From Neotabrizicola shimadae (GTDB lineage Bacteria; Pseudomonadota; Alphaproteobacteria; Rhodobacterales; Rhodobacteraceae): DNA of 64,000 bases. Below are positions 22,130 to 54,561 of this stretch, one piece after another; positions within the stretch are counted from its first letter, which is position 1, and each line of letters begins with the position of its first letter. The stretch is taken from contig NZ_CP069370.1 of NCBI RefSeq assembly GCF_019623905.1, forward strand, positions 930,001 through 994,000. Direction: 5' to 3'. Position numbers and translations under genes: made by a program. The notes under the pieces were generated by a model that saw only the letters and a list, made by a program, of their open reading frames with translations, was not told the origin of the DNA and ran no database searches.

Positions 22130-22236
22130 GGGCAAGTCCTTCCGGTTATCCTGAGGCCAAAGACTTAGGGCCGCCGCCGGGTGGCTGCAAGGGCCTGCAA
22201 GGGGCGCCGCCAAGGGGGGCGGGGCGGGGCGAGAGA

Positions 22237-22311
22237 GCGTCCGAGCTCGGACACTTTCCCGGCCCTTAAAAATCAAGGGCTTGCGGGCGCGTCTTAACTT
22301 GGACTTAAGAC
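22237..22311. repeat. Intergenic repeat copy A: palindrome + IHF-type site + TTAA-N7-TTAA box
   Basis: This 75-base element is alignable with the elements at 48642-48717 (reverse orientation) and 54356-54431. It has GCGTCCGAGCTCGGACAC (palindrome core GTCCGAGCTCGGAC, 22239-22252), then AATCAAGGGCTTG (22271-22283), which fits the IHF consensus WATCAANNNNTTR exactly, then 17 bases after ATCAA the box TTAACTTGGACTTAA (22294-22308). It lies between the GNAT gene, whose stop codon is inside the box, and bolA. Confidence 0.85.
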
Positions 22312-22796
22312 TTTTCCGCGGGCGCCAGGTCCGAGCGGTTCAGGCCGTAGAGCATGAGATCGACCGAGCGACCAAGACTTGGGCGGAACCAGTGGTTGCG
22401 CAGGCGGCCTTCGAGGGTGAAGCCGACCGCCTGGTAGAGATGCTGCGCCCGGAGATTTTCGCCCGAGGCATCAAGCCAGATGCGCCGGGCGCCGAGCACA
22501 TCGAAACCATAGGCAATCAGCGCGGACATGAGGGCGCGGCCGCGGCCGCCGCCGGTCTGGTCCAGTGCCAGGCGGCGCAGTTCCACCCGACCGGAGGGAT
22601 CGCCGATTTCGCAGAAGAGGGCGAAGCCCGCCGCGCGACCGCCTTCCTGCCAGATGAGGAGGTGCGCGGATGGGTCGGCCAGATAGGCGGCCAGCCCCGC
22701 CTCGTCTTCATCCGAGATGAAGGGCGCATTCTCGGGGCGCTGCGCGAGACGCCGGATGAAGGCGAAATCCTCCGGCGTCGCGCGGCGCAGGCTCAT
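22305..22796 (-). CDS. GNAT family N-acetyltransferase
   Basis: A 163-residue acetyltransferase with the acetyl-CoA binding region [20 protein letters not shown] (motif A, R/Q-x-x-G-x-G/A-like) near residue 85-105 and the preceding strand VELRRLALD. The start [26 protein letters not shown] is RimI/RimL-like. It overlaps the purL stop by 4 bases (ATGA) and so is the second gene of a purL-GNAT unit. Substrate unknown; a protein N-terminus, an amino acid or a small molecule are all possible. The stop codon coincides with the TTAA box of repeat copy A. Confidence 0.82.
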
Positions 22797-46998: not shown

Positions 46999-48402
46999 AT
47001 GCTGATGGATTGCTCCCCCGCCTTTGTCGAAACGCTGGCCGGCCTTCTGCCGCCCGGAACACTGCGCGCGCCCGAGCCGCGCGATCTGGAAGAGCCGCGC
47101 GGACGCTGGACGGGGCAGGCTGGCGCCGTCGCCCTGCCGCGCAGCACCGATGAGGTGGCGGCCATCGTGCGGGCCTGTGCGGCGGCGCGGGTGGGCATCG
47201 TGCCCCTGGGTGGCGGCACGGGTCTGGTGGGCGGGCAGGTGATGCCCGAGGGGCCATTGCCGCTGGTCGTCTCGCTGGAGCGGATGGTGGCCTGCCGCGG
47301 TGTCTGGCCCGAGGAGAACGTGCTGGTGGTCGAGGCCGGCATGGTGCTGGCCGAGGTGCAGGCGCAGTCAGAGCGGGTGGGGCGGCTTTTCCCGCTGTCG
47401 CTGGCCTCGGAAGGCTCGGCCCGGATCGGGGGCTGCCTGTCCACCAATGCCGGGGGCACGGGGGTGCTGCGCTATGGCAATGCCCGCGACCTGTGCCTTG
47501 GGATCGAGGCGGTGCTTCCCGACGGGTCGGTGCTGCATGGGCTGAAGCGGCTGCGGAAGGACAACACCGGCTACGACCTGCGCCACCTGCTCATTGGCGC
47601 AGAGGGGACCTTGGGCATCCTGACCGCCGCCAGCCTGAAGATGGTGGCGCCGCCCTCGGGCGTGGCCGTGGCGATGCTGGTGGTCGAAAGCCCCGCTGTG
47701 GCGCTGGACCTGCTGGCCCTGGCGCAGGGGCGCTTCGCCGGGCTGGTCTCGGCCTTCGAGCTGATCGCTGGGCAGGGGCTGCGCTTCCTGACCGAGACAA
47801 TGCCCGAGGTGCGCCAGCCCTTCGCCGTGGCCCCCGACTGGTCGGTGCTGGTGGAACTGGGTCTGCCCGCAGGGCTGGACCCGGAAGGCGCGATGGCAAG
47901 CCTTCTGGACGAGGCGATGGAGGCGGGGCTGGTCAGCGACGGGGTGGTCGCCGCCTCGGGCGCACAGGCCCAGGCGCTGTGGCAGGTGCGCGAGTCGATC
48001 CCGCTGGCCAATCGCAAGATCGGGGCGGTCTCCAGCCACGATGTCTCGCTGCCCCTGTCCGAAGTGGCGGGCTTCATCGCCGAGGCCGACCGCGAACTGG
48101 CGGCCTTCGGCGACCTGCGGGTCAACTGCTTCGGGCACCTTGGCGACGGAAACCTGCACTACAATGCCTTCCCGGCGGTGGGGCGGGGCCGGGAAGAGTA
48201 TGACGGAAAGGCCGTCCAGCGGCTGGTGCATGATCTGGTCCATGCACGGGGCGGCTCGGTCAGTGCCGAGCATGGGGTGGGGCGGCTCAAGGTGGGGGAC
48301 CTGACCCGCTACGGCGACCCGGCCCGGCTGGCCGCGATGCGCGCCATCAAGACGGCGCTGGACCCTCTCGGCATCATGAACCCCGGCGCGGTGCTGGGAT
48401 AG
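46999..48402 (+). CDS. FAD-linked oxidase (GlcD / D-2-hydroxyacid dehydrogenase type)
   Basis: A 467-residue flavoprotein of the PCMH-type FAD-binding family. The FAD-binding segment is VGIVPLGGGTGLVGGQVMPE (near residue 70-90), followed by PLVVSLERMVACRGVWPEE and the glycine-rich GGCLSTNAGGTGVLRYGNAR. The C-terminal NCFGHLGDGNLHYNAFPA and EHGVGRLKVGDL are diagnostic of the GlcD/D-lactate/D-2-hydroxyglutarate dehydrogenase group. Which hydroxyacid it oxidises is not shown. A methionine two codons later is an alternative start. No partner subunit GlcE/GlcF is visible. Confidence 0.9.
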   Translation: MLMDCSPAFVETLAGLLPPGTLRAPEPRDLEEPRGRWTGQAGAVALPRSTDEVAAIVRACAAARVGIVPLGGGTGLVGGQVMPEGPLPLVVSLERMVACRGVWPEENVLVVEAGMVLAEVQAQSERVGRLFPLSLASEGSARIGGCLSTNAGGTGVLRYGNARDLCLGIEAVLPDGSVLHGLKRLRKDNTGYDLRHLLIGAEGTLGILTAASLKMVAPPSGVAVAMLVVESPAVALDLLALAQGRFAGLVSAFELIAGQGLRFLTETMPEVRQPFAVAPDWSVLVELGLPAGLDPEGAMASLLDEAMEAGLVSDGVVAASGAQAQALWQVRESIPLANRKIGAVSSHDVSLPLSEVAGFIAEADRELAAFGDLRVNCFGHLGDGNLHYNAFPAVGRGREEYDGKAVQRLVHDLVHARGGSVSAEHGVGRLKVGDLTRYGDPARLAAMRAIKTALDPLGIMNPGAVLG

Positions 48403-48641
48403 GGCGCCCGAACCCGGCCCCTTGGTCAAGGTGCCGTGAATCCAGCGGTTTGCGGGAACGGAGTTTGCGGCAAGGATCGGTCCTGCGGTCAGAGGCAGGC
48501 TCCGGGCCGACAGGATGACGACACGGTGAATGAAATCCCTGAGGCTCGTGCCGTCGGAGTCTCGGCCGCCACCAGTCGAAACGGCGGGTGTGACTCATCC
48601 AGAAATGCGCGCGCGCGGCGCCTCTCGCATGGTGACGAGAA
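48403..48641. other. Intergenic stretch without recognised gene
   Basis: About 240 bases between the FAD-linked oxidase and repeat copy B. I see no convincing gene or RNA; the short open frames here lack Shine-Dalgarno sequences and family resemblance. The G+C content falls toward repeat copy B. Confidence 0.5.
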
Positions 48642-48717
48642 GTGTTAAGTCCAAGTTAACTTGGGCGCGTAAGTCATTGATAAAAAATGGATCAGCAAAG
48701 CGTCCGAGCTCGGACGC
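48642..48717. repeat. Intergenic repeat copy B (reverse orientation)
   Basis: This 76-base element reads leftward as the same module as copies A and C. The palindrome GCGTCCGAGCTCGGACGC is complete (48700-48717), the IHF-type site is TATCAATGACTTA in leftward reading (48670-48682), and the TTAA box TTAAGTCCAAGTTAA lies at 48645-48659. Spacing between ATCAA and the TTAA box is 17 bases, as in the others. It lies between convergent genes, 22 bases beyond the aa-tRNA-protein transferase stop. Confidence 0.87.
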
Positions 48718-48738
48718 CCCCTCGGACGCCCTGGGGCC

Positions 48739-49584
48739 TCAGCTCTTGTGGTCCCGCGGCCCCCGGGCTTCGGGCAGGCTGATCCGGGCCACCTGCTCGG
48801 CAATCGGGTCCACCGACAGGGGGTGCAGCTCGGCCGAATGGTCCGCCGGGTCGCCGATCTCCTGCCAGCGGCCCCCCTTATAGATCTCCAGGGCCGAAAA
48901 CCCGGCCTTGTAGCCCATCTTCCGGCTCCCCGGCACCCAGTAGCCCAGGTAGACATAGGGCAGCTTGGCCTCCCGGGCGATCTCGACGTGGTCGAGGATC
49001 AGATAGGTCCCCAGGCTCATGCGGGTCAGGTCCGGGTCATAGAATGAATAGACCATGGACAGCCCGTCATCGAAGACATCGGTCAGGCAGACCGCCGCCA
49101 GCGCCCGCCCCTTTTCCCCCGCCTCCGCCGGCCGGGTATACTCGATCACCCGGCTGCGGATCGGCGTCTCCTCGATCATGGCCGCGAACTCGAAGATATC
49201 CATGTCGGCCATGCCCCCATCGGCATGCCGGTGGTCCAGGTAGCGCCGGAACAGCGCGAACTGGTCCTCGGTCGCCCAGGGACTGGTGGCATTCCGCCTC
49301 AGCGCCCCGTTCCGCGCCATCAGCCGCCGCTGTGTCCGGTTCGGCTCGAAATCCTCCACCCGGATGCGGGCGGAAAGACAGGCCGAACACTCCGCGCAAG
49401 AGGGCCGGTACAGCACGTTCTGGCTGCGCCGGAACCCCTGCTTGGACAGGGTATCATTCAAACGCTGCGCATGGTCCCCCTGCAGCGCCGTGAACAGCTT
49501 CCGCTCCATCCGCCCGTCAAGGTACGGACAGGGCTGCGGAGCGGTCACATAGAACTGCGGCGCAATGGGAAGGGTGTGGCGCAT
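48739..49584 (-). CDS. bpt: Aminoacyl-tRNA-protein transferase (Bpt/Ate type, N-degron pathway)
   Basis: A 281-residue enzyme that transfers leucine (or arginine) from aminoacyl-tRNA to protein N-termini, marking them for degradation by ClpAP. The family patterns are [42 protein letters not shown] with conserved cysteines, and [20 protein letters not shown] followed by [20 protein letters not shown]. Bacterial members of this Ate-like family with an N-terminal cysteine group are called Bpt and attach leucine to acidic N-termini. It is convergent with the FAD-linked oxidase and divergent from nothing close. Confidence 0.9.
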
Positions 49585-54094: not shown

Positions 54095-54353
54095 AGAGGC
54101 GGACCCCAAGGGGCTGGTGCGGGAGGCCTATGCCATCGAGGGGATCACCCCCGGCGAGTGCCGGTCGATCCTTCTGGACTGGGCCCTGGGCCTGCCGGGC
54201 GGGACCAATATCCCCGATGCCCTGCGGGCCCTGCTGGCCCATTACGGGCCGGGGGCGGAGGAGCATCCGATGACCGGGGTCATGACCGAGGGCCTGACCC
54301 CACCCGACACCCCCCGCCGCCGAGGCGGCCGGGCCGCGAGGGTGGGGGCCTGA
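54084..54353 (+). CDS. Small conserved-looking protein of unknown function
   Basis: An 89-residue protein, MKVEEADPKGLVREAYAIEG onward, with a compact helical region GECRSILLDWALGLPGGTNI and PDALRALLAHYGPGAEEHPM, and a basic tail (RRRGGRAARVGA). I do not recognise a named domain. It overlaps the glnE stop by 11 bases, so it is translated with glnE and might act with glutamine synthetase control, but that is context only. Repeat copy C begins 2 bases after its stop. Confidence 0.7.
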   Translation: MKVEEADPKGLVREAYAIEGITPGECRSILLDWALGLPGGTNIPDALRALLAHYGPGAEEHPMTGVMTEGLTPPDTPRRRGGRAARVGA

Positions 54354-54355
54354 AG

Positions 54356-54431
54356 GCGTCCGAGCTCGGACGCTTGGCCTGATGATTTAGAATCAATGGG
54401 TTGCATGTGGGAATTAACTCGGCGTTAGGAA
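54356..54431. repeat. Intergenic repeat copy C
   Basis: The 76-base element has the complete palindrome GCGTCCGAGCTCGGACGC (54356-54373), the IHF-type site AATCAATGGGTTG (54391-54403) and a slightly worn TTAA box TTAACTCGGCGTTAG (54414-54428). ATCAA-to-TTAA spacing is 17 bases as in copies A and B. It starts 2 bases after the stop of the small gene following glnE and ends about 130 bases before the EamA gene. Confidence 0.85.
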
Positions 54432-54561
54432 TTTGCCTGCTGCGTTCCGGCTCGGCCCGCTCTGGCCGGGCGCTTGGGCGCCGGCACGATGGCATCCCCG
54501 CAGAGGCGGCCCTGGAAGGACAGGGGCAATCCGGTCAAGCCGCCCCGCAGGGCGACCCACG

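Follow-up and report, generated by a model that had tools for sequence, protein, structure and literature searches.

Dispersed elements termed RIB or RIP were reportedly described in E. coli by Boccard and Prentki in 1993, and the replication origin of Caulobacter is said, after Brassinga in 2002, to carry both CtrA and IHF sites. E. coli BIMEs are candidate supercoil-domain barriers, one of which impeded the diffusion of supercoils (PMC6907758). The CGTC-tagged REPs of Alphaproteobacteria measure 20-40 bp, are AT-paired at the start of the stem and occur mostly as head-to-head dimers; the paper that reports them does not mention a Rhodobacter or Paracoccus CGTC-REP family (PMC3733652). The published CtrA full site is TTAA-N7-TTAA (PMC6180460).

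An initial annotation of the window (the whole 64-kb stretch of DNA analysed here) had reported three boxes fitting this CtrA consensus, the last with one change, each next to an IHF-type site. Their coordinates were right, box A shares bases with the stop codon of a minus-strand GNAT ORF as claimed, and a putative IHF-type site does lie beside each box. The three boxes are real and not a product of chance: they were the only matches to TTAA-N7-TTAA in the window at up to one mismatch, 0.43 being expected, and three were reached in 2 of 100 shuffles. All three lie in copies of one 88-bp element, which consists of the palindrome GCGTCCGAGCTCGGACGC, the IHF-type site WATCARNNNNTTR and TTAA-N7-TTAA. 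The annotation had the boxes and their IHF neighbours, and overlooked that the palindrome forms a third fixed module, that the copies are evenly spaced along the whole chromosome and that the element has spread through the family. The window held no Rfam match. The features are as follows.

22234-22320 (+): element copy A, intergenic, with one base less between palindrome and IHF site; the end of the box overlaps the 3' end of the GNAT gene (-)
22237-22254 (no strand): copy A palindrome, GCGTCCGAGCTCGGACAC
22271-22283 (+): copy A IHF-type site, AATCAAGGGCTTG; consensus from the element alignment
22294-22308 (+): copy A CtrA-type box, TTAACTTGGACTTAA, on the stop codon of the GNAT ORF 22305-22796 (-)
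48633-48720 (-): element copy B, in the convergent gap between ORF 46999-48402 (+) and ORF 48739-49584 (-)
48645-48659 (-): copy B CtrA-type box, TTAACTTGGACTTAA as reverse complement; the box in the heading of the initial annotation
48670-48682 (-): copy B IHF-type site, TATCAATGACTTA
48700-48717 (no strand): copy B palindrome, GCGTCCGAGCTCGGACGC
54353-54440 (+): element copy C; its palindrome starts 2 nt past the plus-strand frame upstream, whose stop codon is at 54351-54353
54356-54373 (no strand): copy C palindrome, GCGTCCGAGCTCGGACGC
54391-54403 (+): copy C IHF-type site, AATCAATGGGTTG
54414-54428 (+): copy C CtrA-type box, TTAACTCGGCGTTAG, of a minor subtype

The exact palindrome GTCCGAGCTCGGAC occurs 162 times in the genome. 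We analysed the element over 2.374 Mb (about 57%) of the 4.154-Mb chromosome, with some counts made on the first 2.05 Mb. That smaller portion holds 83 exact palindromes, of which 82 are accompanied, at the set distance, by a box recognisably of the TTAA type; 76 of these 82 boxes score at least 10 of 15 against TTAACTTGGACTTAA. When copies were aligned on the palindrome, information stood above background from -5 to +82, with three conserved blocks: GGCGTCCGAGCTCGGACGC spans -3 to +15, the IHF-type site +33 to +45, and TTAA-N7-TTAA +56 to +70. Within the second block the invariant letters are those of the IHF consensus WATCARNNNNTTR: the determinants C36, A37, T43 and T44 were found in 83 of 83 copies, with A or G at 38 and G or A at 45. 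Module spacing in the 76 high-scoring copies varied by at most one base, located between palindrome and IHF site, and about 56 bp separate the centre of the palindrome from that of the box. Since the copies were first gathered by exact palindrome, this alignment is biased towards palindrome conservation, and a full-length profile scan is the fairer test. The scan returned 102 matches in 2.374 Mb, all above 50 bits (the maximum in simulated DNA was -55), and none between 15 and 50 bits, that is, no decayed copies. With scores divided in this way, copies of the element are therefore either complete or absent. The 14-bp palindrome was exact in 97 of the 102 matches, any change being confined to five.

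At the right tail, +71 to +82, a repeat of half the palindrome, TGTCCGAG, is present in 45 of 170 copies from two species, and GTCCC occurs there in a few copies of other genera, possibly as a half-site for the same palindrome reader. An RNA hairpin at the right end, pairing CTTGGAC with GTCCGAG, was ruled out by mutual information across the 170 copies, which showed coupling of neighbouring bases only. A second A/T-rich palindrome close to a few copies proved not to be associated with the element.

Like the E. coli RIB and BIME, the element is a dispersed intergenic repeat that combines a palindrome with an IHF site (here predicted) and favours the 3' ends of transcription units. However, in RIB and RIP the IHF site lies between two REP palindromes, whereas here one palindrome stands at one end, and the tail half is without base-paired covariation, so that it does not make a second RIB-type palindrome. 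The element also differs in having another palindrome, an added TTAA-N7-TTAA box, a genome without a Y1 transposase, a spacing evener than random and no decayed copies. On the best reading it would work like an E. coli RIB/BIME to which a CtrA site has been added, without being a member of that group by sequence. It resembles the CGTC REPs as a set of dispersed palindromic repeats lacking a dedicated transposase, and contains CGTC by chance within GGCGTCC, but IHF and TTAA modules are not described for those repeats (PMC3733652).

The third module was examined across the genome and beyond it. TTAA-N7-TTAA occurred 106 times genome-wide against 5 for the reversed control, and nearly all sites listed shared one 15-mer, set at a constant distance from GTCCGAGCTCGGAC. 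The masking check proposed in the initial annotation gave a clear outcome: 67 of 69 sites in 2.374 Mb lay inside the repeat, and the 2 left after masking matched the 2 of an AATT-N7-AATT control, so the enrichment lies wholly within the repeat. Both half-sites read TTAA in 114 of the 170 copies from the two species, the rest mostly having one half-site changed (TTCA, GTAA, TTAG or TTTA), and variants with quite different centres retained the frame TTMA-N7-KTMA. The centre CTTGGAC was kept in 138 of these 170 copies of the window's genus, which is more than CtrA alone requires and counts against the explanation that we favour below. From +65 to +71 the second half-site shows coupled variants (GGAC-TTAA[C/G], GGAC-TTCAT and GGCG-TTAG/GTAAG), and C at position 69 co-occurs with T at 71 in 25 copies, so that there may be more than one type of half-site.

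In 34 copies from 12 other genera the best box spacing was again N7, with 6.6 of 8 half-site letters matched versus 2.6 in shuffles (z 24); the seven central letters varied and the frame TTMA-N7-TTMA was kept. The CtrA gene of the genome (C1:1736795-1737469) encodes a protein 73% identical to Caulobacter CtrA and without any substitution across the DNA-recognition region from LTGKEYQML to KLRKKLA. Genes for both IHF subunits are present. The CtrA reading of the initial annotation is supported: with the N7 frame kept while centres vary, and the recognition region unchanged, the box behaves as a CtrA-type site, and we strongly infer that it is a predicted site for this regulator. It shares with the CtrA full sites of Caulobacter and Rhodobacteraceae the half-sites, the seven-base spacing, a centre that is free across genera and the unchanged recognition region. 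The known full sites, however, lie in promoters near -35 or at the origin, whereas the candidate sites described here belong to a repeat biased to gene ends. The analogy with the Caulobacter replication origin drawn in that annotation applies to the adjacency of IHF-type and CtrA-type sites but not to function, since the element is present in about 160 dispersed copies, with a palindrome and at gene ends, and is not an origin.

Outside the elements, 2.05 Mb contained 20 near-matches to the CtrA site, of which 17 lie upstream of a gene; judged by their sequence, ordinary promoter CtrA sites seem to exist too, outnumbered by those in elements. The ctrA promoter itself has GTAACCCTGCGTTAAC; at about -70 relative to C1:1736795 the region reads GTAACCCTGCGTTAACC, a CtrA site with one mismatch at the position usual for promoters, and autoregulation is possible.

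We compared the copies with those of a sister species, the one other species of the genus examined (CP059262.1), which has 138 palindromes. Thirteen sister elements had both flanks syntenic; twelve share an intact element with the present genome, and the thirteenth is matched by a mutated, recognisable copy. A supposed empty site at C1:763 kb was in fact a mutated copy. For 22 orthologues anchored by their flanks, agreement was 0.99 in the palindrome, 0.79 in the IHF core and 1.00 in the first half-site, while spacer 1 agreed at 0.41, as against 0.39 in random pairs. Fourfold sites agree at 0.71 between the two species. In a gapped comparison non-coding flanks were near saturation too, and the spacers diverge much like other intergenic DNA; the idea that spacers are hypermutable or replaced, raised by the values of 0.41 and 0.71, was dropped, intergenic DNA in general being near saturation. 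The orthologue pattern is a phylogenetic footprint of the three boxes and their spacing.

Placement was assessed with gene calls from a codon-usage script; gene starts are approximate. Among gaps 80 bp or longer, 10.6% are convergent and hold 28 of 86 elements, an enrichment (p 4e-8); 30% are divergent and hold 8 of 86, a depletion (p 5e-6), and the remaining 50 elements lie in tandem gaps. In 33 of the 54 copies whose palindrome faces the 3' end of a gene, the palindrome starts 0-3 nt past the stop codon; in the remaining 30-32 copies it faces a gene start, usually 40-110 nt off. The description of the boxes as lying at gene ends stands as a bias but not as a rule; 58 of the 86 copies are also flanked on one side by the start of a gene. 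The bias may reflect no more than tolerance of insertion at gene ends. Mean spacing was 22.5 kb, with a coefficient of variation of 0.67 versus 0.95 in class-matched random gaps over about 57% of the chromosome (P 0.0002), and the variance-to-mean ratio of element counts was 0.36 per 100 kb and 0.22 per 200 kb. The evenness was weaker in the sister species (P 0.03, on a thinned list). The 76.6 kb of plasmid contigs of this strain contained no copies, about 3 being expected. Strain La 6 has a related copy on one of its plasmids, located 15 nt past the stop codon of hutU.

The explanation that we favour, tentatively and at slightly less than an even chance, is that each box serves as third module in a non-mobile nucleoprotein element found along the whole chromosome, its copies being regularly placed architectural nodes. 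Each copy would gather a putative palindrome-binding factor (or form a hairpin) at GTCCGAGCTCGGAC, IHF, and a reader of TTAA-N7-TTAA, most likely the response regulator CtrA, with IHF bending the DNA between the outer modules. As intergenic nodes at intervals of about 22 kb, the complexes may organise the chromosome or mark it, serving as domain barriers or as complexes at 3' boundaries. Their state could track the phosphorylation of CtrA, and they would not switch the promoters of individual genes. We infer binding by IHF and CtrA, and an architectural function. The element is kept at individual intergenic places and is evenly spread, and an organising or boundary role is therefore likelier than single-gene regulation. 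The fullest version, in which nodes of CtrA, IHF and a palindrome factor exist in at least a dozen genera (about 160 here, one per about 22 kb) and provide architecture or insulation switched by the CtrA phosphorelay, is conceivable but rather doubtful as a whole.

The main rivals are three other explanations, a terminator, an old repeat and CtrA titration, and each leaves part of the data unexplained. The element may be a transcription terminator or mRNA 3'-end hairpin placed right after the stop codon and followed by a short T run, with the IHF and CtrA-type sites assisting or incidental. The frequent start of the palindrome directly past the stop codon, its folding to -14 kcal/mol with a tetraloop, the enrichment of T at +16 to +18 and of convergent gaps, and the survival of pairing through changes of letters and centre length across genera are all consistent with this. 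However, the T run is merely 2-3 long, and the GC hairpin with its 2-3 T is present equally in the roughly 30 copies that face the 5' end of a gene; T content past the palindrome and box quality are the same in both groups, which speaks against a pure terminator. The central AGCT, which would form the unpaired hairpin loop, varies as little as the stem, mutual information reveals no covariation of paired bases in the rest of the element, and the fixed IHF and TTAA modules and the even spacing are left unexplained. We consider a terminator unlikely on balance. The element could instead be an old mobile or selfish repeat of the REP, BIME or MITE type, spread by transposition and now a relic, as its dispersed, intergenic, multi-copy nature, its partial tail copy of half the palindrome and the turnover of the palindrome between genera, typical of REP families (PMC3733652), would suggest. 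Mobilisation as a REP by a Y1 transposase was ruled out, as the genome has no such gene: the Y1 (RAYT-type) transposase PF01797 was absent from it, with control genomes positive. All 13 fully syntenic sites checked for insertion polymorphism were occupied. Against a relic also stand the absence of decayed copies and of near-identical recent ones in this genome (the nearest paralogue reaches at most 0.84 at variable positions, with one close pair, at 0.94, in the sister species), the occupation of corresponding loci in two species between which the spacers have diverged, the evener-than-random spacing and the lack of any match to this genus's form in plasmid, phage and IMG/VR collections; such an origin seems improbable to us.

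Titration, the third rival, and one further reading differ in the purpose of the box or in its reader. With a logic like that of datA/DARS for DnaA, some 160 strong sites could titrate CtrA as a buffering reservoir, replication shifting the free pool through the cell cycle. The element sites are evenly spread, hold nearly all perfect sites and far outnumber ordinary CtrA-like ones, that of the ctrA promoter included, as titration would have it, but a reservoir has no need for an IHF site and a palindrome at fixed distance, for placement after stop codons or for conservation of each locus between species, and we give it little credence. Alternatively, the box may be read by a protein other than CtrA, either another OmpR-type regulator or a dedicated factor. 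The conserved CTTGGAC centre points in this direction, and the genome encodes several further candidate OmpR-type regulators, which are about 30% identical to CtrA. In the 12 other genera, however, only the published CtrA full site is kept (PMC6180460), with the centre free, and the recognition region of CtrA is unchanged; we regard a different reader as quite unlikely.

Should CtrA bind, most perfect consensus sites in the genome would be non-promoter sites within a genome-wide structural element, and the reading of CtrA regulons from motifs or ChIP would change. The element offers a clean, testable case of a regulated, evenly spaced mark on a bacterial chromosome, and suggests that these bacteria mark or organise their whole chromosome with a cell-cycle or motility regulator, which is not described in the literature that we found. 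The function of RIB in E. coli is apparently still open, and this element family could make the question tractable. We found no description of the element, its exact palindrome included, in a literature made up mostly of open-access papers, and its novelty is accordingly provisional.

Searched in 296 family genomes, a sequence model built on the element gave at least 9-14 matches in nine genera besides the window's and 7 in one more, and a strict palindrome-plus-IHF pattern was positive in 13 of 295 genera, with zero matches to its reversed controls in all 296 genomes. For the window's genus the strict pattern gave counts of 138 and 118; the 12 other genera had 56, 53, 47, 34, 31, 23, 19, 13, 7, 2, 1 and 1. 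By this pattern the element is missing from most genera of the family and is therefore not essential in the group. Outside the family we found one isolated match among 385 genomes drawn across the class. The palindrome in other genera is typically GTCCCA-N3/4-TGGGAC, and in a second genus GTCCCANNNTGGGAC; its letters and centre length change across genera and its pairing is kept. This turnover, together with the persistence of the IHF and CtrA modules, offers a route to the putative palindrome-binding factor. The centre of the palindrome is 2, 3 or 4 bases long depending on the genus, with the distance to the IHF site about constant, which is unusual for a simple dimer site.

The record that served as sister species, CP059262.1, is titled 'Exiguobacterium profundum isolate SSD5' (a MAG). 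Copies of the element family that belongs to this alphaproteobacterial genus occur in it, and fragments of it match the Neotabrizicola shimadae genome at about 86% nucleotide identity; the record is very probably mislabelled.
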